A DNA stretch of 64,000 bases. Origin: Neptuniibacter pectenicola (GTDB lineage: Bacteria; Pseudomonadota; Gammaproteobacteria; Pseudomonadales; Balneatricaceae). Shown here piece by piece: positions 39,391 to 51,260 of the stretch. Under the pieces are notes generated by a model. That model was not told the DNA's origin, made no database searches, and saw only the letters and a list, made by a program, of their open reading frames with translations. The position numbers were made by a program, and so were the translations under genes. The DNA lies in the NCBI RefSeq assembly GCF_001597735.1, contig NZ_LUTS01000003.1, positions 248,001 through 312,000 on the forward strand, written 5' to 3'. Within the stretch, counting starts at the first letter, position 1. The number at the start of each line of letters is the position of its first letter.

Positions 39391-40614
39391 CTAAGCCTTC
39401 CTAAAGTTGGCAGTAATAACGTTACCCGCCAACGCTTGAGCTTTAAGCTGATCTAAGTAATCGGCCCAACGTTGCATCATTTCGGTACGTTGTTCTAAGT
39501 GTTTAGTTCGGTTGTAGGCTCGCCCGTTGGCGTCTTTAACCGCATGGGCTAATTGCTGCTCTATCCATTCCACACGGTAGTTCAATGCTTCATCTAATAG
39601 CGTTCGGGCCATTGCTCTGAAGCCGTGAGGGGTCATGGTGTCGTTGTCATAGCCCATTGATCTAAGGGCAACCCTGATTGCGTTTTCAGACATACAGCGA
39701 CTACGGCCACGGGCGGATGGAAAAATATATTCTCCCTTACCTGTGATGGGGTGGAGGTCCTGAAGTATTGAAATAGCCTGTTCACTTAATGGGATAATAT
39801 GTTGCTGGTGGGTTTTCTCTGCCACCAGCTCAATGCGTAATTCATCATGGTTTATATCGGACCATTTGAGGTGACGAAGTTCGCCAGGTCGACAGAAGAA
39901 GAGAGCTGAAAGCTTTAGTGCTGAACGGACTACCTCAGTGCCTTGAAATAGGTCGATAGCGGCCATTAACTGACCAGCTTCTTTTGGTGTGGTGATCGCT
40001 GAAAAGTGTTTGGTTTTAGCTGGTTTTAAGGCCCCTTTTAGATCGGGGGTGGGGTCTCGTTCAGCTCGTCCGGTAGCAATGGCATACCTGAACACTTGCC
40101 CAGCAATTTGTTTATCTCTGTGGGCGGTTTCTATTGCGCCTCGATCTTCGACCTTTCTAAGGGCTCCAAGTAGCATGGGTGCTGTTACTTCGTTTATGGG
40201 GGTATCGCCAATAGAAGGGAATAGGTCGTGTTCTAGGGCGCGTAAAACTCGTTTTTGGTATCCAAGGGTTTTATCGCTTTGTTGTGTTTCAAACCATTCA
40301 AGAGCAATAGACTGAAAAGAATTAGTGGCTCGTAGTTTCTCAGAGGCTTTGTTTGCTTTCTTGTGGGCGGATGGGTCAATACCGTCAGCTAACAGTAAAC
40401 GGGCTTCGTCACGCTTTTCTCTGGCTTTCTTTAGTGTTATTTCAGGGAATACGCCAAATGATAAAAGCTTCTCTTTCCCTTGGAAGCGGTACTTCATGCG
40501 CCAGTATTTAGCACCGTTAGTTTTGATCAGTAAAAACAAGCCTTTTTCGTCAGATAGCTTGTATTCCTTTTCTCTTGGAGTTGCTGCTTGCGCTTCTTTT
40601 ACTGTCAGCGGCAT
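39391..40614 (-). CDS. int: P4-type tyrosine integrase
   Basis: Site-specific recombinase of 407 aa. The N-terminal DUF4102 arm-binding domain is seen (PLTVKEAQAATPREKEYKL, then GKEKLLSFGVFPEITLKKAR), followed by a SAM-like core-binding domain and the catalytic domain: Arg in FFCRPGELRHLKWSD, HxxR in PHGFRAMARTLL, and Tyr in DANGRAYNRTKHLEQR. The ATG at 40614 is preferred to a GTG six bases upstream. It is oriented away from ssrA and lies about 190 bases from its 3' end, matching integrases that target tmRNA. Confidence 0.95.
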   Translation of the reverse strand: MPLTVKEAQAATPREKEYKLSDEKGLFLLIKTNGAKYWRMKYRFQGKEKLLSFGVFPEITLKKAREKRDEARLLLADGIDPSAHKKANKASEKLRATNSFQSIALEWFETQQSDKTLGYQKRVLRALEHDLFPSIGDTPINEVTAPMLLGALRKVEDRGAIETAHRDKQIAGQVFRYAIATGRAERDPTPDLKGALKPAKTKHFSAITTPKEAGQLMAAIDLFQGTEVVRSALKLSALFFCRPGELRHLKWSDINHDELRIELVAEKTHQQHIIPLSEQAISILQDLHPITGKGEYIFPSARGRSRCMSENAIRVALRSMGYDNDTMTPHGFRAMARTLLDEALNYRVEWIEQQLAHAVKDANGRAYNRTKHLEQRTEMMQRWADYLDQLKAQALAGNVITANFRKA

Positions 40615-40646
40615 ACCCACGCCCTCTTGTGGAAATATCCGATTTT

Positions 40647-40808: not shown

Positions 40809-41167
40809 TGGTGGAGATGGCGGGGGTCGAACCCGCGTCCGTCAATCCTCCGCCTCAAGATCTACATGTTTAGGCTTCTCTATTTAATTAACCCGTCACG
40901 ACCCGAGAGCCAGGGTGTTATGGGCGAGCTTCTTTAGTTTTAACCGTTCGGCTTGAAGCAAAGCGTCCGGGCGATTCTGTCTCGAATGATACCGCAAAAT
41001 CCTTTAGTTACAGACACCTGAAGGAGCGGCACAAGCCGGCTTAAGCGGCTAGAGCGTAGTTATCGTCGTTTGCAACTATAACTGTGTAGTGAGGGATTTA
41101 CGAGAATCACTACATTCTCGACATGCACCTAAGGTTTTGTAATCAGCGTCGAAGCCAAGTCATCCCC
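40809..41167 (-). ncRNA. ssrA: Transfer-messenger RNA (tmRNA)
   Basis: About 359 nt with a one-piece tmRNA layout. The 5' end GGGGATGACTTGGC pairs with 3' CCATCTCC-ACCA to give the alanyl acceptor stem; the T arm reads GCGGGTTCGACCCCCGC. The resume codon GCA starts a tag reading frame ANDDNYALAA followed by TAA, so the full tag is AANDDNYALAA, one residue from E. coli. A TATAAT box is present ten bases upstream of the 5' end. The 3' end has been rebuilt by an integrated element, which separates the gene from its likely original terminator 4.1 kb away. Confidence 0.97.
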
Positions 41168-41232: not shown

Positions 41233-42663
41233 CTATTGCTGACGACCTAATTGGTCGCAATAGCTTTCTAGGTCTTTACTCGCTTTTGATGCGGTTTTAT
41301 CCAGTGAGGCTAAGTTATTTTCAACAAAGGCGGCAAGTACCGCAGGTCTGGCGCTTTGTGGAATATTTTTCTGTTCCATAACGGTATCGAAGGCGGTTGA
41401 GAGCTCTTCGCGCTTTTCGGGTGTCATCGAATTAAGCTTTTCCCAAAGGGCAGTGAAGCCTGCGCTTTCGCGGCTTGAGGGGGCCAAAGCGCCGACCGCT
41501 TCTAGAATAGTAGATAAGGTCGCGCCGGCAATCTGGCCTCCTACATTTGATGTTTGGCCAATGAAGCTTCCCACACCGTTAGGAATTAATATGCCGGCTA
41601 TGTAAGTACCGGTAGACCAGTTTTGAGACGAGGTTGCGCGCTCTATGGCTTGGTCGTCCATGATACCAGAGGCTTCGCCAATGCGGGCTTCATCGACTGC
41701 GCGGATAGATTGCAGTAAACCGGGGAGACCCATGACAGCACTGGTGCTAGCCCCTGCGAGTAGGCCTAGTACTAAAGGCGTGCTTGCCCCTCCTGTAATG
41801 ATACCTACCGCTATGCCGGCCGTGATACCAGAAATTGACCGTACCCAACTTTCGGTACTGAGTTGTGATTCACCTCGGCTGACGGCTTGATTGATACAGA
41901 GAACAATAAAGCTGCTTTGGCTCGCGCCGAGTGAGCGGATAAGGCTCTCTTTTGCGCCGGGAAGCTGGGAGATAGTTTTAAACAAGTTTTGCGGGGCGAT
42001 AATACGAAAGTTTTCGAGGGTGTCAGTTATAAGGCGGCTGGTGGCGCGAATGCCGCTTGCCATTCTATCGCTGCTGTCGAGGGCGACGACTGATTCTATT
42101 CCTAGCCCATCCATCAGCTGTTGTCCTGCTTGTTGCGTGGTTGGGTTGGATGAGGTGACCATGGCTCTTAGACGGTCTCTCCATGTGCTGAGTTGAGCTT
42201 CATTAGATGCCAGCGCATTGAGTGATCTAACTGCTTGATCCATCATGCTGACCGCTTGGGAGTGGGTTTCCCAGGCGAGTTGACCGCTTAACGAGTCTCT
42301 AACTTTATCGCGTAGGAATACATTAAGGGTGCCCCGATGATCTTGACTCATGTTCGCGTAGCGGCGTCCGATGGCATTCCAGATGTTATTGTTGACTTGG
42401 TCTTGAGTGTGGCTGGCCGCAAAGGTTCTAAATGCTTGGGCGCGAAGGGCTCGGTTAAATGAATCGGTATGGTCGACGTAGTGTTCAAGGCTGTTAACCG
42501 AATCCCAGAAGTAACCCTCATCAATAGGGTGCGCACTAAGCGTGGCGACAATGCGATCAAATGCATTAATCGTGAGTGATTGTTGGGGCGTAATTCGGTT
42601 GTTTAAACCATCGCTACCGGCGCGGGATAGGGCGGCCGAAACGTCGTGTCCTGGATTGCACAT
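41233..42663 (-). CDS. Unknown 476-aa protein with two Gly/Ala-rich hydrophobic segments
   Basis: Last gene of the smpB-ssrA cluster. No signal peptide. Residues 1-270 are polar and helical with several Trp; residues 277-318 (GITAGIAVGIITGG, GLLAGASTSAVMG) and 352-393 (TYIAGILIPNGVG, GGQIAGATLST) are long Gly/Ala-rich hydrophobic stretches that could form helical hairpins inserting in a membrane; a charged helical tail follows. This layout recalls pore-forming or delivered proteins but I recognise no family. A strong AAGGAGG precedes the ATG, suggesting high translation. Confidence 0.75.
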   Translation of the reverse strand: MCNPGHDVSAALSRAGSDGLNNRITPQQSLTINAFDRIVATLSAHPIDEGYFWDSVNSLEHYVDHTDSFNRALRAQAFRTFAASHTQDQVNNNIWNAIGRRYANMSQDHRGTLNVFLRDKVRDSLSGQLAWETHSQAVSMMDQAVRSLNALASNEAQLSTWRDRLRAMVTSSNPTTQQAGQQLMDGLGIESVVALDSSDRMASGIRATSRLITDTLENFRIIAPQNLFKTISQLPGAKESLIRSLGASQSSFIVLCINQAVSRGESQLSTESWVRSISGITAGIAVGIITGGASTPLVLGLLAGASTSAVMGLPGLLQSIRAVDEARIGEASGIMDDQAIERATSSQNWSTGTYIAGILIPNGVGSFIGQTSNVGGQIAGATLSTILEAVGALAPSSRESAGFTALWEKLNSMTPEKREELSTAFDTVMEQKNIPQSARPAVLAAFVENNLASLDKTASKASKDLESYCDQLGRQQ

Positions 42664-42755
42664 GTTGCCTCCTTATGGCGATTTATAGCCAAAATTTTTA
42701 TCGTTTTTTACTGCATTTGATCCATCAATGTTGTGCTGAAAATGTTTCGTTTTAG

Positions 42756-43064
42756 CTAGTCAGTTATCTGTCCATTATTAATGGCGCGCTCTATGCTCGG
42801 TGTTAATTGCTCAGACAGTGAGCTGAGTTGGGACGCGTCTAAATTACTTAAAGCACTTAGTTTATGTAGGGAACCCTGTAAGGCTGAGCTGTCGGCTACG
42901 TCGTTTTGTCTAGGGTCGGAAAATGTAGTGCCAAGTGAACTTAATAGTTGTTCGACATTGGGTGTTGGCGGGCTCGATCCGTTTGGGCTTTGTGCGGGTT
43001 GCTGCGATGGGTTGGCAAGGCGGCGTAGCAGGTTAGCGAGCTGAGGGGCTGAAATATTCATCAT
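42756..43064 (-). CDS. Small unknown protein of the smpB-ssrA cluster
   Basis: About 102 residues, soluble, Ser/Pro/Gln-rich in the middle (ANPSQQPAQSPNGSSPPTP) with a helical start (APQLANLLRRLA) and a helical end (LSSLSEQLTPSIERAI). The start is uncertain: GTG 43070, ATG 43064 and ATG 43061 are all in frame; 43064 is chosen because GCGAG lies upstream. It starts nine bases after the previous stop, so it belongs to the same transcript. Function unknown. Confidence 0.6.
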   Translation of the reverse strand: MMNISAPQLANLLRRLANPSQQPAQSPNGSSPPTPNVEQLLSSLGTTFSDPRQNDVADSSALQGSLHKLSALSNLDASQLSSLSEQLTPSIERAINNGQITD

Positions 43065-43073
43065 ATACACTCG

Positions 43074-43652
43074 CTAAATCTTTAGGGTTAAGACCTGATC
43101 AGCTTCTATCAGTTCACCTGCCTGAGGATCGGTGGTGGTGACGATTTTGCTATCAGATACGTTTTTAGGGCTGAAGTTGTAACTAATACCTAAGCGTTGG
43201 AGTAGCACTTTTGCGGTGGCTAAAGGTTGCCCGATTATATTCGGGACAATGTTAAGATCATCCACCTGTGTGGGGGCGGGCACCGGTAGGAATTTAATGG
43301 TTAGTTTGCTACTGGCCTGTACATTAAAATCATATTGATTCTGGTAGCTTGCATCGACCGTGGTGCCTTGTAGTTCAGTAGTTGTTTTACCATTGCTGTC
43401 TAAGGTTTGTCTAAGTGAGAGCGCCATATTGATCTCAGCGGTGGCCTCTGGAATGACATACCATGTTGGGCGATAGCCGATGTTTCTTAACTCAGTGATG
43501 GTTTCGTCATCACTGCGGTAGATTTCCTTCATGTTCTCAAGTGTTCTAGCATCGATGGCGTACTGAGCATTTGCGATGCCTGTACCAATTTCGGCGACCA
43601 TGTCACCAAGGGGTGCTGCTAACACATCCTGAAAGATATTCTTTTGTGACAT
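43074..43652 (-). CDS. Paralogous module protein with C-terminal PASTA-like domain
   Basis: 192 residues. Residues 1-130 match the module shared by four other genes in the cluster: PLGDMVAEIGTGIANAQYAID, then NIGYRPTWYVIPEATAEINM, then YQNQYDFNVQASSKLTIKFLPVPAP. Residues 135-192 (VPNIIGQPLATAKVLLQRLG ... DPQAGELIEADQVLTLKI) have the PASTA pattern. PASTA domains usually lie outside the cell on penicillin-binding proteins and kinases; here there is no signal or membrane segment. ATG follows CAGGAG and lies two bases from the upstream stop. Confidence 0.75.
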   Translation of the reverse strand: MSQKNIFQDVLAAPLGDMVAEIGTGIANAQYAIDARTLENMKEIYRSDDETITELRNIGYRPTWYVIPEATAEINMALSLRQTLDSNGKTTTELQGTTVDASYQNQYDFNVQASSKLTIKFLPVPAPTQVDDLNIVPNIIGQPLATAKVLLQRLGISYNFSPKNVSDSKIVTTTDPQAGELIEADQVLTLKI

Positions 43653-43654
43653 GT

Positions 43655-44767
43655 TTAAGCTCCTGTACTGGGGGAAACCCCGATAATTAACATGATTTCA
43701 GTGTCGGGATCGATTGCAGCGCCTGCTTTTGGCGCTTGGCTAATAATTTTTCCGGTTTCACTTTGTTGCTCTTTTGTCAGTTGCTGGTTGTACCACTGGG
43801 CATCGAGCTGCATCTCTTCGAGTCTTCGGTTTGCCAAGCTGCGGGTGTAGCCTGTTAAATCCGGCATTTTGGTTTTGTGTGGCGTAACCGTTTCTTGATG
43901 GCCTGGCACGTCTAAGTCGAGTATCAGTGTTGAGAGCATGGCGGGGTCAATTAGGGTCAGGCTGTTCGAGTCTTTAACCAGTCGTATTTTGTCTTTGCTG
44001 CTGCCGGGCAGTACTTTTAGATCCATGCGTGCACTTTTTAACTGGAAACGCCCGTTATTGTCATGGTCCGCTTTGTTCAGGGCGGCCATGGCGGATGAGA
44101 TCATTTCGTCTTTACTGAGCTCTTCTGTTTTTAAGGTTGCTTTGGCATTGGGGTCGATTCGTTCGAGCTCTTTAATACGGTTCTCTTTGCCTTTGAGCTG
44201 TTCGGTTAGGTTTTTGTTGTGTAGCTGAAGCGTCGACAGTTGCTTTGTTAGGGCAGGGTCTATTTTTGGGTTTTGAGTGACCTTTCGTAACTGGTCAATT
44301 TCAAGTTTTAGCGTAGATTCCGCTTTTTTACTGGCTTGTAGCTGTTTTTCGAGTGTTTGATTAGAGACTTTAAGCGTGTTTAGTTGTTTTAGGCTTTCGG
44401 GGTTAGCTTTAGTTGTGACGCCAGTTATTGATGATGGAATCGTATGAAAGATGGTGTTGGCAACGGTTAGAACGGGGGTGAAGCTGACTTTTACGTTTCC
44501 AAAATCCAGTTTGCTGCTGCTGTAGCTTTTAGGTGTGTTGGTGAGATTTAACCAGTTGTTCTTATGCAAGGTACGAAGAAGTACACGTGGTAAGTAATCA
44601 CTTACTTTCGTGCTGCTTTGGGCTTTAAATTGACCATTTGCTAGGGTTTTTCCTGAGGCTATACTTTTTATACGGCCGTTTGCCGCGTAGAAACAGACAT
44701 CTACTGTGGCATTGTTTAAGGCTTTGCCGTTACTATCAAGAAGTTTGGCTGTAATTGTCAGTGCCAT
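43655..44767 (-). CDS. Multidomain protein: Ig-like, coiled coil, PASTA-like
   Basis: 370 residues without signal or membrane segment. Residues 1-100 look like a beta-sandwich of Ig/transthyretin type (LTITAKLLDSNGKALNNATV); residues 125-205 are a coiled coil (LKLEIDQLRKV, LQLHNKNLTEQLKGKE); residues 215-290 include DEMISSAMAALNKAD and FQLKSARMDLKV, echoing the helix-then-strand order of the paralogous module; residues 301-364 are PASTA-like (MPDLTGYTRSLANRRLEEM ... QAPKAGAAIDPDTEIMLII). It may be an elongated connector; this is inference from shape only. AGGAG precedes the ATG. Confidence 0.75.
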   Translation of the reverse strand: MALTITAKLLDSNGKALNNATVDVCFYAANGRIKSIASGKTLANGQFKAQSSTKVSDYLPRVLLRTLHKNNWLNLTNTPKSYSSSKLDFGNVKVSFTPVLTVANTIFHTIPSSITGVTTKANPESLKQLNTLKVSNQTLEKQLQASKKAESTLKLEIDQLRKVTQNPKIDPALTKQLSTLQLHNKNLTEQLKGKENRIKELERIDPNAKATLKTEELSKDEMISSAMAALNKADHDNNGRFQLKSARMDLKVLPGSSKDKIRLVKDSNSLTLIDPAMLSTLILDLDVPGHQETVTPHKTKMPDLTGYTRSLANRRLEEMQLDAQWYNQQLTKEQQSETGKIISQAPKAGAAIDPDTEIMLIIGVSPSTGA

Positions 44768-44777
44768 TATTTATCTC

Positions 44778-45425
44778 CTATTGATGTCTGTATAGCAGTG
44801 TTTCGGTTTGCGAAAACAGGTCGGCGCTGATGGCGATAATCTGGTTTTTGGGTTCGGTCTTGGCTATGTTGAGTTGGCATGAGGCGTAGCCTTGGGCGTC
44901 CAGTGTTAATGTGGCCAAACTGAGCTGAGTCCCTCTATTTAGCCCGCCTCGCTGCTCCTGTTTGTTGAGCTTTGCGGAGAGTTCGCGGTCGATATTTATT
45001 TCGACCACACTGTTACTTAACGGCTCTCCTAAACTGTTGCGGCCACGTACTTCTAATTTGACGCGGGAGGTGGATGATTTTTCCGCTGATAATATGATGA
45101 CCGGGGTTGGGCGACCTGAGTCTATAGGGGTGGCGACCATGACGCCGCGAATGACACTGCTGGCGCTTTGGGTCTGGTTTGTGGGTGATGATGGCCTAAA
45201 CGCCAGTTTTGTTTTACTGCTTTGTTTTGCGCTCGATGATGAGGTTGAGGTCATATCTAGCTTTAGCTCAAATTCCATTTTGGGAATATGGTAAACCAGT
45301 GCCTCTTGACCGTATGCATTGAGTACAGGTGCGCGATTAAGCCGACTTTGCGCTTGGGTTAGGCCGTCAGCCAAGTTGATCAGGAAATCATCTAAATTTT
45401 GCCCTTGGGCAACCTGATTTGACAT
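44778..45425 (-). CDS. Paralogous-module-like protein with Ig-like C-terminal domain
   Basis: 215 residues. The N terminus LDDFLINLADGLTQAQSRLN and then YHIPKMEFELKLDM repeat, in degenerate form, the helix/AQ/strand order of the cluster module. Residues 65-105 are a Ser/Thr/Gln-rich linker. Residues about 110-213 look like a bacterial Ig-like domain (VKLEVRGRNSLGEPLSNSVV, ATLTLDAQGYASCQL). GGAG precedes the ATG. Ten bases upstream of the next gene, so co-transcribed. Confidence 0.72.
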   Translation of the reverse strand: MSNQVAQGQNLDDFLINLADGLTQAQSRLNRAPVLNAYGQEALVYHIPKMEFELKLDMTSTSSSSAKQSSKTKLAFRPSSPTNQTQSASSVIRGVMVATPIDSGRPTPVIILSAEKSSTSRVKLEVRGRNSLGEPLSNSVVEINIDRELSAKLNKQEQRGGLNRGTQLSLATLTLDAQGYASCQLNIAKTEPKNQIIAISADLFSQTETLLYRHQ

Positions 45426-45452
45426 GTTATCTACTCCACCAATTCATTGGAT

Positions 45453-46343
45453 CTAAAATCCCCAGCGGGCACTTTCAGCTCGCTTGTCCATGTGTTTTTG
45501 CAGTGCGCGTTGTCGCCGTTTCTCATCGTTTAGCTGCTGTTGGCGCTCTTCTTCTTTTCTGCGAGCTACGCGTTCTTGATGTCTGTTTTGCCGTTGTTCG
45601 AGTTCTTTATCCGCCGTCATTTTTTTAGTGTCGAGTGCAGAATCGATCGGTTTTTGTTTGAGCCTTTCTTCCCGTAGTAGGTAGTCGGCTAAACGTTGTT
45701 TGTTTTCTAATGCCACTTTTTGCGCTTGCTGTTTTTGCATCTCTATACGTTGTTGCTCAGCGGCAATACGTTTTAATGCGTCCTGTCTTTGTTGCGCGAG
45801 GCGTTGCTGCCGTTCTCGCTGTAATGCTTCGTTGCGTTGTCGTTGCAACTGTTGTTGACTTAGGGCCTCACGTTTTAGCTGATCCAGTTTTTGCTGGCGC
45901 TGTTGTTTGTTTTTATGCTCAATTTTTTTGCGAATGAGCTGGTCCATCTTTAGGGCTTTCGCTTGGTTCTCTTTTTTCTCTTCTTGCTTACGTTTTAGCT
46001 TTAATTGTTCCAGCCACCTTTTTTTCTGCTCGGCTTGTAGTAGTTCTATTTTTACCGCTTGCTTGTCTTTTAGGCGTGATTTAGCTGTGTGAACGGGCAT
46101 GGGGAAACGTAAGCTGTCCCAGCTGTTCTCCTCTGCTTTTGATCGGCCTAATAACTGACCCATCTCCTGCTCAAGGGTTTGGTGGTGAGCGATGAGTTGT
46201 TTTAGCTCATCTGAAACCTGATCCAGTTGAAGTAGGTCTGAGAGTGACTTTTTATCGCTGTCGCCAGGTAGTGCAGGCGAAGAGAGAGGGGAGGGGGTAC
46301 CCTCCTCTTCCAGCAGGTCGTTCCAGTCTAGATAATCACTCAT
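45453..46343 (-). CDS. Highly charged coiled-coil protein
   Basis: 296 residues. After an acidic N terminus (DYLDWNDLLEEEG) and a segment with helical heptads (SDELKQLIAHHQTLEQEMG), residues about 90-290 form one long Gln/Arg/Lys/Glu-rich helix (KKRWLEQLKLKRKQEEKKEN and many similar stretches), probably a single-alpha-helix or coiled-coil rod. It could scaffold or measure length, but composition alone does not show a function. No membrane segment. It lies in the middle of the cluster transcript, 12 bases after the preceding stop. Confidence 0.75.
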   Translation of the reverse strand: MSDYLDWNDLLEEEGTPSPLSSPALPGDSDKKSLSDLLQLDQVSDELKQLIAHHQTLEQEMGQLLGRSKAEENSWDSLRFPMPVHTAKSRLKDKQAVKIELLQAEQKKRWLEQLKLKRKQEEKKENQAKALKMDQLIRKKIEHKNKQQRQQKLDQLKREALSQQQLQRQRNEALQRERQQRLAQQRQDALKRIAAEQQRIEMQKQQAQKVALENKQRLADYLLREERLKQKPIDSALDTKKMTADKELEQRQNRHQERVARRKEEERQQQLNDEKRRQRALQKHMDKRAESARWGF

Positions 46344-46355
46344 CGTTTCGACTTC

Positions 46356-46913
46356 TTACTCTGCGTCAGGTTTGTTACGTTCAACAATCGCCCTAATGCG
46401 TTCTTCTAAAACGGCAGGGGGCGGTGTCGGCATAATGCGGCTTCGCATTAAGCTAGAGCCTTCTGCCGAGTAGTTGTATTTGTTGGCATAGCGAGCACTG
46501 ACGGAGGTGGTTCTCACTTTGGCATGTGCGCCTATGATAAAACCGGTCGCTGTCGCGCTTACCGATTTGCTCGAACTCTTACGTTCGAACTCGGACTGTT
46601 CGGTAAAACTGATCGAGATTTTTATCTCTATGGTGGTGTCGGTAAATTGATAAAATGTTGGGGTGAAACCAAGTTCAATTAAGGACATTTTCTGGCCATC
46701 AAAATGAACAAGGGATTCCTTTTTGGTGACGGATGTGGTGCCTGTAATGGGATCTATTTCGGTGACTTCATATTCACCGCTCATCATCTGGGCAAGGCGT
46801 AGACCGCTTTCATCCATGGCATATTGTGCTTCTGCGATCGCCATTCCCATACCGGTGATCATTTCACCAAAAGGGACATCACTCAATTCACGTCCAATGC
46901 TTCTGCGAGGCAT
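46356..46913 (-). CDS. Paralogous module protein (copy D)
   Basis: 185 residues built entirely of the shared module: IGRELSDVPFGEMITGMGMA with IAEAQYAMDESG, then ELGFTPTFYQFTDTTIEIKI, then YANKYNYSAEGSSLMRSRI and PTPPPAVLEERIRAIVE. It is closest to the next gene upstream (46942-47514), sharing IGR-L--VP-GEMI, LGF-PTFYQFT and KYNYSAEG-SL. The middle (about 115-145) is a variable loop. No signal peptide or known domain. AGGAG lies upstream of the ATG. Confidence 0.75.
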   Translation of the reverse strand: MPRRSIGRELSDVPFGEMITGMGMAIAEAQYAMDESGLRLAQMMSGEYEVTEIDPITGTTSVTKKESLVHFDGQKMSLIELGFTPTFYQFTDTTIEIKISISFTEQSEFERKSSSKSVSATATGFIIGAHAKVRTTSVSARYANKYNYSAEGSSLMRSRIMPTPPPAVLEERIRAIVERNKPDAE

Positions 46914-46941
46914 AATCTATTGCTCCTATATTAGTTTGACA

Positions 46942-47514
46942 TTAGGTCTCATCGGATAGGTTGTCATTATCGAGTAGCGCACGAACACGCTCTTCAAACA
47001 TAGCCGGTGCAGGAATTGGGACTAAGTTACAGCGCAGTAAACTGGCCCCTTCAGCGCTGTAGTTGTATTTGCTTGAGTAGGTGGCATCGACGGTGGTTGT
47101 CCCCACTTTTGTTTTACTGCCAAATAAGCGACCAAAGAAACTTGAGCTTTTTTTGTAGTTGTCTCGGCTGCTATTGGTTGTGGTTGTACGTTCAATTTCA
47201 CGGGACATTTTGATCGCAATTTTTACTTCAATAATATTGTTGGTGAACTGGTAAAAGGTCGGCGAGAAACCGAGCTCCATCATGCTGAGTTTTTGTGATT
47301 TACCCTCTTCATCTTTACCAAAATAAACCCGCGTATCTTCTGTGCCGGTGATGTTGCCGTTGTCATCGAGTATAGGTAATCGTCCGCCCATCATTTGGGC
47401 TACATGTACACTGGCTTGGTCGAGTTCATATTGTGCATCGGCAATGGCGAAAGCCATCTCTCGGATCATCTCCCCCATGGGGACATTTAGTAGATCTCTT
47501 CCTATGTTTGACAT
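46942..47514 (-). CDS. Paralogous module protein (copy C)
   Basis: 190 residues of the same module: NIGRDLLNVPMGEMIREMAF, IADAQYELDQASVHVAQMMG, MELGFSPTFYQFTNNIIEVK, a Ser/Lys-rich variable loop (RDNYKKSSSFFGRLFGSKTK), and KYNYSAEGASLLRCNLVPIP followed by an acidic helical tail. The overall order (N-terminal helix with AQ, LGF..FY strand, variable loop, strand plus PxPxP) is vaguely like DUF2589 proteins, but that is an impression only. CAGGAG precedes the ATG. Confidence 0.75.
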   Translation of the reverse strand: MSNIGRDLLNVPMGEMIREMAFAIADAQYELDQASVHVAQMMGGRLPILDDNGNITGTEDTRVYFGKDEEGKSQKLSMMELGFSPTFYQFTNNIIEVKIAIKMSREIERTTTTNSSRDNYKKSSSFFGRLFGSKTKVGTTTVDATYSSKYNYSAEGASLLRCNLVPIPAPAMFEERVRALLDNDNLSDET

Positions 47515-47542
47515 GATTTAACTCCTGTAAATATGCGCTAAT

Positions 47543-48034
47543 TTATTCGTTAGTATCATTATTGGTTGAGGTTGATTGCCGACTGGCAAGCCAGTTTTGA
47601 AAAGCGTTTGGCGGTGGAATGGATGAAATACGTGCTGTAATTGAGCTGCTTGCTTCAGAAGAAAAGCTGTACTTGCTACTGAAGGATGCGCTCACGGTTG
47701 CAGCAAACATGACGAAATAGGCGGTTCCTCCGGCCATAACAGAGGTGCCAAAACTGGCTTCTGTGGTGGTTGAAGAGGAGAGGGATACTTTTAGATCGAT
47801 GGTGGCTTCGGTGAAGTGATAAAACACGGGGGCAAAGCCAAGGCTAATCAGCGATTGTTTTTCGCCATTACCGACATCGACACCGTGACCTTCAGCATCG
47901 CCGAGTTGCATCGCCATATTAATGGAGTTGAGATCAAGCTCACGCTGCGCTGATGCGATAGCCGTACCTAATTGGTTAAGGAGACCGGGCAGTGGAGATT
48001 GTTCTAAACTTGCCATCACTTTGTTATGTGACAT
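47543..48034 (-). CDS. Paralogous module protein (copy B, shortest)
   Basis: 163 residues. Module motifs: LLNQLGTAIASAQRELDLNS, SLGFAPVFYHFTEATIDLKV, FSSKYSFSSEASSSITARIS and SIPPPNAFQNWL. The variable loop here is hydrophobic (MAGGTAYFVMFAATVSASF), unlike the charged loop of copy C, which suggests different partners or positions. TGGAG lies upstream of the ATG. It is 14 bases downstream of copy A. Confidence 0.74.
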   Translation of the reverse strand: MSHNKVMASLEQSPLPGLLNQLGTAIASAQRELDLNSINMAMQLGDAEGHGVDVGNGEKQSLISLGFAPVFYHFTEATIDLKVSLSSSTTTEASFGTSVMAGGTAYFVMFAATVSASFSSKYSFSSEASSSITARISSIPPPNAFQNWLASRQSTSTNNDTNE

Positions 48035-48048
48035 TTTAGTGCTCCAGG

Positions 48049-48681
48049 TTAGCCGTCGGTATCCGTGTCGCCATTGTCGGTCGGTGTGTCGTTATCTGCA
48101 GGTGTATCACTATCAGCTGGGTTAACCGGAATAGGGTCAACTAATGGCGCAGGGTTTGGCTCGGCTGAAATACGGCCACCGCCGTTGGCTGCGTGTGTTT
48201 TTATCGCATCCAAAAATGCTTGTGGAGGTGGTACTGAGCGCATGGTGGTTTTAATACGGGAGACGGCTTCCATATCAAACTCATATTTGTGGTGTAGGTC
48301 GAAAGAGATGCTGCCTGCAAATGCGACAGGGAAGCTTGAGTTTTCTTGTGTACCTGCTTCGAGCTCACCACCAATATCTATCCCAGATTCAACGCGTACT
48401 GAAATGGTAACTTTGAACTCCATCTCTGTTTCAGTGAAGTGATAGAACTGTGGGATAAAACCGAGCTCAAGTAAGCTCCTGTCGCGAGGTACGCCTTGGG
48501 CATCGTTAAAGGTGACTTGTGTTTCACTAAGGAGCGTGGCGGCGCGTACTGAGGTTGCGTCAAGCTCATATTGTGCGGAGGCAATTGCTTTGGCTGTGTT
48601 CTCTATCAGTTTAGGGATAGGCACGTCCATGAGGGCCTGCCCCGGTGTCATGCCGGCGACTTCATTATCAAAATTCATCAT
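48049..48681 (-). CDS. Paralogous module protein (copy A, first of the array)
   Basis: 210 residues. Module motifs: MDVPIPKLIENTAKAIASAQ, YELDATSVRAATLL, LLELGFIPQFYHFTETEMEF, LHHKYEFDMEAVSRIKTTM and SVPPPQAFLDAI. It ends with a Pro/Asp/Thr-rich tail of PADSDTPADNDTPTDNGDTD type that is likely disordered. Two adjacent ATG codons follow GGGAG; the first is taken. A 138-base gap upstream, with a palindrome, suggests this gene may begin a second transcript. Confidence 0.75.
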   Translation of the reverse strand: MMNFDNEVAGMTPGQALMDVPIPKLIENTAKAIASAQYELDATSVRAATLLSETQVTFNDAQGVPRDRSLLELGFIPQFYHFTETEMEFKVTISVRVESGIDIGGELEAGTQENSSFPVAFAGSISFDLHHKYEFDMEAVSRIKTTMRSVPPPQAFLDAIKTHAANGGGRISAEPNPAPLVDPIPVNPADSDTPADNDTPTDNGDTDTDG

Positions 48682-48716
48682 ACTCTCCCTTTCTTGATCA
48701 GCGCGGAGCTAATCGC

Positions 48717-48734
48717 TTGATCTATACAGATCAA
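48717..48734. promoter_or_regulatory. Palindrome upstream of the paralog array
   Basis: TTGATC-TATACA-GATCAA, six-base arms about 36 bases before the ATG of the first paralog. It could be an operator. No clear -35/-10 pair was found next to it. Confidence 0.3.
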
Positions 48735-48819
48735 TTGCGTTTGTTACTGCGGGTATGCAGTAAGAGAAATCCTTTCTACAGCAATGTATACATTCGTTTC
48801 AGCGCAAAAGCTGATAGGG

Positions 48820-49350
48820 CTAACTAAATGCTTTTGCGCCCTCCCGAACAAGTTGGTCGGAGAGATGGAATAGCCCCAAGCTTTGTTGTTCTTGTGTTAA
48901 ACGGCCAGAGGATGCACTGCTATATCGGTTGATACGATTGATTACGGGTTGCAAACTGGTTTGTTGTTGAGCATTGCAGAGCGACAGAAGGTGTTTGTTT
49001 TGTGTGCTGAGTTGATTACGCATATCAAGTTTTATCAGCAAACACAGTTTTCTCATCTCAAGTGCAATGAGGTCTTTTTGGGCTTCGGCTGACAGTTCAT
49101 CCGGCGCGTCTGTGTATTGGGCTAGGCTGTGTTCACAAATGTCGAGCGCGGTGTTCAGCTGCCCGCACAGCTCTAAAGATTCCATGCTCAATTCGGCCAA
49201 GTAGCGTTGCAATATTAGTTGAATGTTTTGCCGCATTGCCGCTTGGCTAAGTACATGAATGGCTTGTACTGCGGGCTCGTACTGTCGTCTTTTTAACAGC
49301 GAGGCGATCTCTTCTAGTGCCTTCGCGAATGTATTGGGTTTGGCATCCAT
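48820..49350 (-). CDS. Helical protein of unknown function
   Basis: 176 residues, all-helical in appearance and soluble: KALEEIASLLKRRQYEPAVQ and LAELSMESLELCGQLNTALD are TPR-like in spacing, but no full TPR consensus is present. The ATG at 49350 with GGGAG upstream is chosen over an in-frame start eight codons earlier, which would overlap the preceding gene. Four bases separate it from that gene. It could be an adaptor for the cluster; this is a guess from shape. Confidence 0.68.
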   Translation of the reverse strand: MDAKPNTFAKALEEIASLLKRRQYEPAVQAIHVLSQAAMRQNIQLILQRYLAELSMESLELCGQLNTALDICEHSLAQYTDAPDELSAEAQKDLIALEMRKLCLLIKLDMRNQLSTQNKHLLSLCNAQQQTSLQPVINRINRYSSASSGRLTQEQQSLGLFHLSDQLVREGAKAFS

Positions 49351-49354
49351 GACA

Positions 49355-50482
49355 CTATCTCCCTTTTTTCTCATTGGACGGAATTAAGCGCGCCTGCAAG
49401 CCGGTTTTTTTAGCTTCATGGGTAATCCAAAGGCCTTGGTGGGTATTGGCGGATAACGGAATGAGCTGCGGGCTTTCGCCTGTTTTTGTTATAGGGATTG
49501 TTCGTCCCATGATGCTATTGCATAAGTGCTCTAAGGCTGGCTTTACCTCGGGGGGTAGGGCTTTAAGTTCGATATTGTATTTCTCGCCTGCGACCGATAT
49601 GGCGCTGCCTTTACAGCCGAGGGTATGCATTTCGGCAAGTCGTTGTTGTGCTTTCTCAAGGGGAATTGAGCGTTCTAATATAATGGGCAGGGCGTTTATC
49701 AGTTTGTTATGTATTTGGGTCGGGATCGAAAAGCTGTCGGTTAACCATTGGGATAGTTGTTCAGTGTTGATGTCGGTTGATGTGCTGTCCATCGATAAGT
49801 TGAACCGGAAGTAGTCATGATTTTGAATAATGACGGGGAGGTGAAGTGCGCTTGCTTTTTGCCATATAGCTTGCGCTGAGGCGTAACTTAAATTATTAGC
49901 CGACCATTGTTCGCAGGTGATTTCGTTGTTGTTTGGTTTAAGGCCGAGGCTAATGTATTGGCTTCGGACCGACTCGTTGTAGCTGGGCATAAAAGCCATC
50001 ACGGTATAAAGCGCGGTTGCGGGGGCGGATGCAATGAGTTCTATGCCCGGCCTACTGAAGCGCTCTATGAGGTCATCAGCCACGGTTTTGGATAGTCGGC
50101 CTAAAAGGATGGCGGGGACTTGGGTTAAGCTTTTAATGATCTCTTCGCCGGTTTGCCCTGTGAAGGCTGCTATCTCAGCGGCAAATTCGGCGGCGTAATC
50201 AAATTTTGTGATGTGTGCTGCGAGTTCGTAGCGCGCGTTGTCTGTGGTAACGGTGGCATCATTGTCGACGATCTCGCAAGGGAGCTTAAAATCGCTTAGG
50301 GCCGCTTTTAGTTGTAGTGCGCGCTCTTTGCTTAAGTTTGACTGCAAGATTGAAGGTGAGGTGAGAATGCGTTGGATACACTCTTGTTTTGATAGGCCGA
50401 AGTGATCATGGGCTGCACTAATCGTAAGTGCATTGGCGTCACCTATTCCGTTGACCTGTAATTGGTATCCTTGTGATTGCAC
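49355..50482 (-). CDS. Unknown protein with L7/L12-C-terminal-like repeats
   Basis: 375 residues, soluble, first gene of the cluster. Three segments have the pattern helix, P-x-I/V-L, K/E-A-x-x-L, then strand, seen in the L7/L12 C-terminal domain: about 29-76 (CIQRILTSPSILQSNLSKER), 110-152 (EIIKSLTQVPAILLGRLSKT) and 255-300 (IHNKLINALPIILERSIPLE). Such folds bind other proteins. The region 160-245 includes a possible further alpha/beta domain. No enzymatic motif is seen. Confidence 0.7.
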   Translation of the reverse strand: MQSQGYQLQVNGIGDANALTISAAHDHFGLSKQECIQRILTSPSILQSNLSKERALQLKAALSDFKLPCEIVDNDATVTTDNARYELAAHITKFDYAAEFAAEIAAFTGQTGEEIIKSLTQVPAILLGRLSKTVADDLIERFSRPGIELIASAPATALYTVMAFMPSYNESVRSQYISLGLKPNNNEITCEQWSANNLSYASAQAIWQKASALHLPVIIQNHDYFRFNLSMDSTSTDINTEQLSQWLTDSFSIPTQIHNKLINALPIILERSIPLEKAQQRLAEMHTLGCKGSAISVAGEKYNIELKALPPEVKPALEHLCNSIMGRTIPITKTGESPQLIPLSANTHQGLWITHEAKKTGLQARLIPSNEKKGR

Positions 50483-50786: not shown

Positions 50787-51260
50787 TTATCGTGCAGACA
50801 TGAGGCGTTGTTTTTGCAGAGCCCAGTCTTTATCTTTATCCGCAGCACGTTTGTCATGCTGCTTTTTACCTTTGGCTAAGGCGATTTCACATTTAATGTG
50901 ATTACCTTTCCAATAGAGCGCAAGCGGGACGCAGGTAAGGCCCTTTGCATTGATTGCGCTAATGATCTTAACCAACTCTCGGTGATTTAAGAGTAGCTTT
51001 CTTTGACGTGTAGGATCAGCGACCACATGGGTGCAGGCTGTCTTTAACGGTGTGAAATGGGCGCCAACAAGCCACGCTTCTCCCTTATGAATATTCACAT
51101 AAGATTCAACGAGCTGTGCGCGACCTTCGCGTAAACTTTTTACTTCCCATCCGGTCAGCACTAAACCCGCCTCGAATTTATCCTCAATAAGGAACTCGTG
51201 ACGTGCTTTTTTGTTTTGACAGATGGTGTTGCCTGATGGGGCTTTTTTCTTTTTAGCCAT
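50787..51260 (-). CDS. smpB: SsrA-binding protein SmpB
   Basis: Partner of tmRNA in ribosome rescue. Family motifs are [52 protein letters not shown] and the basic C-terminal tail [20 protein letters not shown]. Length, 157 aa, is normal. It is on the same strand as ssrA, but 9.6 kb away because twelve unknown genes lie between. It diverges from the NSS symporter rather than directly from ratA. Confidence 0.96.

Follow-up and report, generated by a model that had tools for sequence, protein, structure and literature searches.

A conserved ten-gene bacterial operon that probably encodes a cell-wall-binding protein complex

We analysed a 64,000-nucleotide window of the Neptuniibacter pectenicola genome (assembly GCF_001597735.1, contig NZ_LUTS01000003.1, positions 248,001 to 312,000), in which twelve minus-strand open reading frames (ORFs) fill positions 41233-50482, with smpB on one side and ssrA on the other. 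Genes are numbered by position, g12 (375 aa) being transcribed first and g1 (476 aa) last. Ten of them, g12 to g3, form a core that recurs in near-constant order in many phyla, and Pfam recognises PASTA alone, in two of these ten window proteins. Because gene order is kept across phyla and Pfam recognition extends only to PASTA, the core genes point to an undescribed bacterial machine. As we discuss below, the probable product of the operon is a complex of proteins able to bind bacterial cell walls and to assist in breaking them. OmpA domains, PASTA domains and neighbouring wall hydrolases give the operon a testable function, and the same features offer a first hypothesis for the protein family DUF2589.

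A profile-guided scan of 84,980 species yielded 274 stretches with relatives of g8, several of which may lie in one locus, and our locus counts (L numbers below) refer to the best 80 loci kept from these stretches. The core pattern (L7/L12-like protein, TPR protein, four module proteins, rod, g5, g4 and a final module protein) was kept in 57 of the 80 loci and was exact in 47, with the rod and g4 positions satisfied by any ORF of at least 90 aa. The 57 loci fall in eight phylum-level groups: Pseudomonadota, Myxococcota, Bacteroidota, Balneolota, Acidobacteriota, Gemmatimonadota, Verrucomicrobiota and SAR324. Among the other 23, which include Planctomycetota, Latescibacterota and Chloroflexota, 12 were, by our reading, cut by contig ends, eight had one ORF missing or extra or an overlong ORF call, and three (L065, L079, L089) were differently arranged. 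The proposal of a first-pass annotation of this DNA that the genes make up one multi-protein system is strongly supported by this order; its unit of twelve genes contracts to the recurrent ten-gene core, and g1 and g2 are variable accessory genes outside it. The cluster is rare, being found in 1 of 398 genomes phylum-wide and 3 of 369 class-wide (own genome counted), and its nearest named relatives in the species scan were Neptuniibacter. In a tree of 56 g12 proteins, Neptuniibacter/Amphritea, Nitrincola and Marinobacterium, all Oceanospirillaceae, occupied separate starred groups, and alpha- and gamma-proteobacterial rows were joined. These placements suggest that the operon was transferred between lineages, more than one change in the tree being no proof of it.

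Five core proteins share a module: g10 (48049-48681), g9 (47543-48034, the smallest), g8 (46942-47514), g7 (46356-46913) and g3 (43074-43652). They were the only matches of the module profile in their own genome, in agreement with the five paralogs counted earlier by eye. Two degenerate copies had also been proposed. The one in g5 (44778-45425), which ends in a part that looks Ig-like by eye, was recovered by profile comparison (probability 77; score 40.0, while 100 column shuffles reached at most 21.0), and the trace in g4 (43655-44767) was weaker (probability 16.9, score 30.5, shuffle maximum 19.9). An AlphaFold2 model of g7 contains a helix (residues 15-44), small strands, a long hairpin (87-115/136-163, two strands of 28-29 residues) and a C-terminal helix. 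The sole significant structural match of this model was an unnamed viral model, BFVD A0A516MP19 (E 7.8e-5, TM ~0.48, rmsd 11.9).

Direct searches with 127 module proteins gave no Pfam match better than E 0.0037 and no family common to more than three members, none of them matched PF11655 at E 0.1, and PDB sequences gave no match at E 1. Profile comparison nevertheless aligned the module collinearly with DUF2589 (PF11655, nine sequences) over 147 columns, nearly the whole length, with probabilities of 71.7 and 87.1 in the two directions and scores of 37.1 and 42.4; 100 column shuffles scored at most 17.1 and reversed profiles 19.2. By this comparison the module appears to be a remote relative of DUF2589, a family of unknown function for which a search of a large text collection returned a single mention in the text that it covers. 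In a PF11655 search, the window's own genome had no match, while 5 of 200 genomes matched; the genes were paired side by side in four of these five. Unlike the ten-gene operon, the DUF2589 loci examined hold one or two such genes. Wall hydrolases adjoin DUF2589 at three of the five loci, GH19 at L113 and L116 and Amidase_3 at L114. These three, from other Pseudomonadota, may represent a similar system pared down to its minimum. On a plasmid of Vibrio sp. 16 (pVDT1, L138), an HlyD adaptor and an ABC transporter with a peptidase domain are encoded a few genes upstream of DUF2589 genes, an arrangement that resembles bacteriocin export loci.

Domains of wall-binding families occur within the core itself. 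First, of the 56 distinct long proteins of the g10 type (57 rows, of which L016 and L075 represent the same record), 55 have the module split in two, with 334-549 residues (median 427) between the parts; for L100 a single part was seen. The break falls at model positions ~100-126, equivalent to g7 residues 110-136, which form the loop joining the two long strands. Pfam places an OmpA domain in 54 of the 56 proteins, and Asp309 and Arg324, 15 residues apart in the OmpA alignment and at least 90% invariant, are presumably the diaminopimelate-binding positions of OmpA. A general rule of display at the hairpin tip was considered and rejected; in the rows examined, long inserts of g8-type proteins lay off the tip. 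Second, the PASTA regions suspected in g3 and g4 were confirmed by Pfam, which found PASTA in 85 of 95 g3/g4 proteins scanned and nothing else past its cut-off among the twelve window proteins. In g4, PASTA follows a weakly Ig-like N-terminus (Big_1, E 0.004), a coiled coil assigned by eye and the module-helix trace. Only the PASTA region of the PASTA-domain Ser/Thr kinase family NF033483 aligned, and Pfam found no kinase family. Both OmpA and PASTA domains bind ligands that are located outside the cytoplasm.

The remaining core proteins are a repeat protein, a helical protein and a rod. g12 (49355-50482) had been described as an L7/L12-like repeat protein, and its predicted fold (pLDDT 92.9) argues for this: it shows five beta-alpha-(alpha)-beta-alpha-beta repeats, of which repeats 1 and 4 match the fold of the L7/L12 C-terminal domain and ClpS. 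g12 differs from ribosomal L7/L12 and ClpS in consisting of stand-alone tandem repeats, and a shared function is not implied. g11 (48820-49374) is helical and corresponds to the TPR family of other loci, and g6 (45453-46343) is a charged rod whose N-terminal segment is conserved. Proteins of the TPR type or with the L7/L12 fold typically serve as adaptors, and N-terminal hydropathy, used in place of a predictor, revealed no evident signal peptide in the window proteins, as the first reading had also stated. These properties would suit a scaffold that stays inside the producer throughout and acts on that cell's envelope or stress physiology, as would the many loci with no lysis or hydrolase gene on the examined side. 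We consider such a scaffold unlikely, however; it would leave OmpA and PASTA on the wrong side of the membrane from their ligands, and the rare, scattered occurrence of the operon is unlike that of a housekeeping structure.

Third, wall-active genes accompany the core at some loci. The genes after g3, and at times those before g12, vary from locus to locus, and at 15 or more of the 80 loci they include one of the wall-hydrolase-like or wall-binding type. Amidase_2 was found at L046, L073, L075, L094 and L095, and at L064 in two genes, one slightly below the Pfam cut-off. PG_binding accompanies an M74 endopeptidase at L032, CHAP at L033, M15_4 at L049 and L057 and a sub-threshold CHAP at L052, and is the match at L101 and, slightly below cut-off, at L091. 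A C39-like peptidase lies one gene away at L063, and at L072 a GH108 gene and then GTA_holin_3TM directly follow the last module gene. Nineteen genomes of the window's relatives (~70 Mb) contained 39 PF01471 and 18 PF01510 matches (the two most frequent of these families), ~0.1% of genes, and at this background chance alone would place well under one match in the two flanking genes of 80 loci. In L094 and L095 (14684-15793 and 14715-15752, respectively), which come from two related genomes (Ectothiorhodospiraceae bacterium and Methylonatrum), the Amidase_2 domain is fused to CobU (cobinamide kinase) in one ORF adjoining the cluster.

The same genes could serve release only, with hydrolases and holin lysing the producer as in type 10 secretion and the assembly acting as a toxin carrier, matrix or adhesin. 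The GH108-holin cassette of L072 and the window proteins' lack of evident export signals fit this explanation, and release of a large complex that depends on a type 10 secretion system has been reported (PMC10847048, PMC10847046). By contrast, it does not account for wall-binding-family domains in the core; a holin was recognised at a single locus, and the terminal segments of some hydrolases recur in the proteins next to them, which suggests that these hydrolases ride with the assembly. We therefore regard a role in release alone as rather unlikely.

Such shared segments, of 32-36 residues, occur at two loci, L091 and L032, in cargo proteins encoded next to each other. The L091 segment, taken from a 493-aa protein, clearly matches a 660-aa protein (BLAST 2.6e-6; 0 of 1000 shuffles as high), and in a 666-aa protein homologous to the latter it was missed by BLAST and scored 55 against a shuffle maximum of 48 (0/1000). 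The C-terminal ~30 residues encoded at L091:18938-20419 recur near the N-terminus of the otherwise dissimilar product of L091:16910-18892. The L032 pair has 36 N-terminal residues in common (0/500 shuffles) and is similar elsewhere too (3.1e-7). These segments suggest a loading tag in L091 and L032. We confine the idea to these loci because the comparisons with g2 (42756-43070), a small accessory protein seen in Neptuniibacter, with Amphritea and with L080 were unconvincing by shuffles and profile comparison. The window's g2 was weakly similar to the Amphritea small protein at the same position (3 of 500 shuffles as high), and g2 of L025 resembled another Amphritea small protein (0/500); profile comparison of g2 with the Amphritea small-protein family gave a probability of 7. 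A tag common to g2 and other cargo was rejected, since against the L080 cargo 8 of 500 shuffles were as high for the window's g2 and 66 of 500 for that of L024. For the L091 tag against Amphritea the figure was 488 of 500, and for the 666-aa L091 protein against g1 it was 2 of 500.

Beyond what was directly seen, namely a conserved gene set, its scattered cross-phylum occurrence, a split module with OmpA and hydrolase neighbours at some loci, we infer that the proteins assemble, what each subunit does, that the assembly binds the wall, that lysis releases it and what it targets. In the explanation we favour, a horizontally acquired operon would direct a multi-protein assembly formed in the cytoplasm from DUF2589-related hairpin proteins (five full and two degenerate modules), the rod and the PASTA proteins, with g12 and g11 as putative factors for its assembly or loading. 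The base would consist of packed helices, from which the long hairpins would point outwards. With OmpA at the g10 hairpin tip in most lineages and PASTA ending g3 and g4, the assembly would bind peptidoglycan; its partners would be wall-cleaving enzymes in a number of lineages and possibly a membrane-active g1 in the window. Because the subunits have no evident export signals, exit by lysis of the producer cell is proposed, after which it would act on the envelopes of other cells. Links to the wall recur in three places: the core itself (OmpA, PASTA), the neighbouring genes (hydrolases, holin) and the DUF2589 loci. Together with the lack of evident export signals, this makes an assembly that meets peptidoglycan after lysis the most economical reading. 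Taken jointly, from acquisition to action on other bacteria, we give these steps somewhat less than an even chance. A bolder version is on balance doubtful: a new, non-phage class of particle, built of DUF2589-kin hairpins with peptidoglycan-binding tips, carrying tag-loaded, interchangeable wall- or membrane-directed cargo, encoded by an operon that moves between phyla, and breaching envelopes after release by lysis. If such a released, wall-breaching particle exists, it would represent a novel type of antibacterial weapon whose cargo can be exchanged.

Several observations weigh against the favoured explanation. In the window, as in Amphritea, g10 is only ~210 aa long and has no insert, and hence no OmpA; the accessory gene of the window was not recognised as a wall hydrolase. 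Flanking ORFs were scanned only when picked by eye or similarity, so that the figure of 15 in 80 reflects non-random and incomplete sampling, and the hydrolase background was drawn from the window's relatives rather than from other phyla. Several hydrolase matches are marginal, the genes at L052, L101 and L063 lie on the opposite strand, and a holin was recognised only at L072. Seemingly ordinary chromosomal genes occupy the examined side of L038, L060, L083, L087, L102 and others, and because many loci are flanked in this way the hydrolases must be optional or located elsewhere. At two of the five DUF2589 loci no hydrolase was seen (L115, with DUF922, and L112, with nothing recognised); among four plasmid records with DUF2589, a gene annotated as peptidoglycan-binding lies within 3 kb in two, one has none and one is unannotated. 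The absence of signal peptides was judged by hydropathy, and the g7 model (pLDDT 74.7, pTM 0.58) has a low pTM and an unreliable hairpin tip. Finally, g1 shows no detectable relation to its 720-aa Amphritea counterpart.

In the window and in Amphritea, hydrophobic proteins stand at the accessory position instead of hydrolases, and g1 (41233-42663) may be a membrane-active cargo. The Gly/Ala-rich hydrophobic segments first attributed to it reduce to one 19-residue stretch above the hydropathy threshold.

Known systems offer partial parallels. Pfam was searched with all twelve window proteins, and NCBIfam and PHROGs with ten (g6 and g11 left out). No enzyme domain was recognised in the core, as first stated; NCBIfam and PHROGs gave nothing convincing beyond the PASTA region, and no profile match placed the genes in a described system. 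Like extracellular contractile injection systems and tailocins, the operon encodes structural-looking proteins without export signals and has variable end genes; unlike them, it has no recognised ATPase, sheath, tube, baseplate or spike family, and the sequence profiles of these injection families found no match in the three collections. Of the particle, filament or injection-like device first envisaged, a particle or filament is plausible, given paralogous hairpin proteins, a rod and no core enzyme domain recognised, and the injection device finds no counterpart among the families searched. Shell families of encapsulins, microcompartments and gas vesicles were matched neither in Pfam nor in NCBIfam. 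Type 10 secretion systems share the absence of evident export signals, the endolysin and holin of L072 and wall hydrolases near further loci; they differ in that a holin was seen at one locus only and the core is unlike any family searched. In the window, a holin/endolysin pair was not recognised, g1 having its one hydrophobic stretch.

Rare, scattered loci, hydrolases beside some of them and DUF2589 genes adjoining lysozyme-like genes might also indicate an abortive defence system based on programmed lysis. When eight of the twelve window proteins were given to PADLOC-DB, however, no family covered a core protein, and the matches were partial: PD-T4-6 over the PASTA region of g4 (8.6e-6), ZorB over the OmpA region of an L039 protein (0.0019), and PtuB1 and MTase_II at 0.03-0.04. 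Nuclease, ATPase and sensor families were not recognised in the core by Pfam either, and defence is in our judgement improbable. Small co-directional, structural-looking genes, the single lysis cassette, the viral model that resembles the module and one unannotated 4-kb phage record with a DUF2589 relative could be read as traces of a phage, tailocin or contractile injection system. Such a remnant is very improbable: the best PHROGs match of the ten proteins had E 0.033, tblastn of g8 against 50,697 phage records found no match, and none of 22 pattern matches in viral_contigs was confirmed. A phage origin was rejected on these tests, made with g8 or its alignment and the ten window proteins. 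A literature search, mostly outside subscription journals and without bioRxiv preprints, found no description of such an operon. No known system tested matches the operon, and the function given here is a proposal.

All twelve genes that had been reported between smpB and ssrA are present as co-directional ORFs, with gaps of -20 to +138 bases between neighbours. Ribosome-binding sites were said to be good throughout; a GGAG-like site precedes nine of the twelve listed starts and none was seen at g11, g6 and g2. Moving the g11 start to 49350, which is likely the true one (176 aa), gains such a site. All twelve genes have orthologues in three further Neptuniibacter genomes, and dN/dS against two of these, computable for 15 of the 24 comparisons, ranged from 0.01 to 0.28 (both pairs failed for g12 and g11, and one pair each for g10, g7, g6, g3 and g2). 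Given these orthologues and ratios, the ORFs look like working genes. A Sphaerotilus plasmid (pSna507_unt10; L017:14646-17425) carries a five-gene mini-cluster with two module proteins, in which g12, TPR and PASTA genes were not recognised.

The cluster is an insertion into the smpB-ssrA interval, which, like the g12 tree, speaks for movement of the operon between lineages. smpB (50787-51260, minus strand; Pfam SmpB 3.7e-55) flanks it upstream and ssrA, the tmRNA gene (40809-41167, minus strand), downstream. Among 11 Neptuniibacter genomes searched for smpB, ssrA starts ~50-120 bases from smpB in all seven without a module match, and the cluster parts the two genes in all four that carry it. 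The site, prominent in the first-pass annotation, proved incidental to the gene set and specific to this genus within the DNA examined, because a tmRNA was found near 3 of 40 loci checked and smpB near 3 of 82 loci compared with the window, the same three Neptuniibacter loci in each case. Past the 3' end of ssrA, a tyrosine integrase gene (39391-40620) hints at another island, attached to ssrA and distinct from the cluster; a relative of the integrase adjoins ssrA in L025, and none was found beside ssrA in L023 and L024. Given this position on the far side of ssrA and the negative result at those two loci, ssrA-targeted integration of the cluster was rejected, and integrase and cluster are treated as independent. 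A TATAAT box, inexact at L127, lies just upstream of ssrA, after g1, and is present both with and without the cluster.

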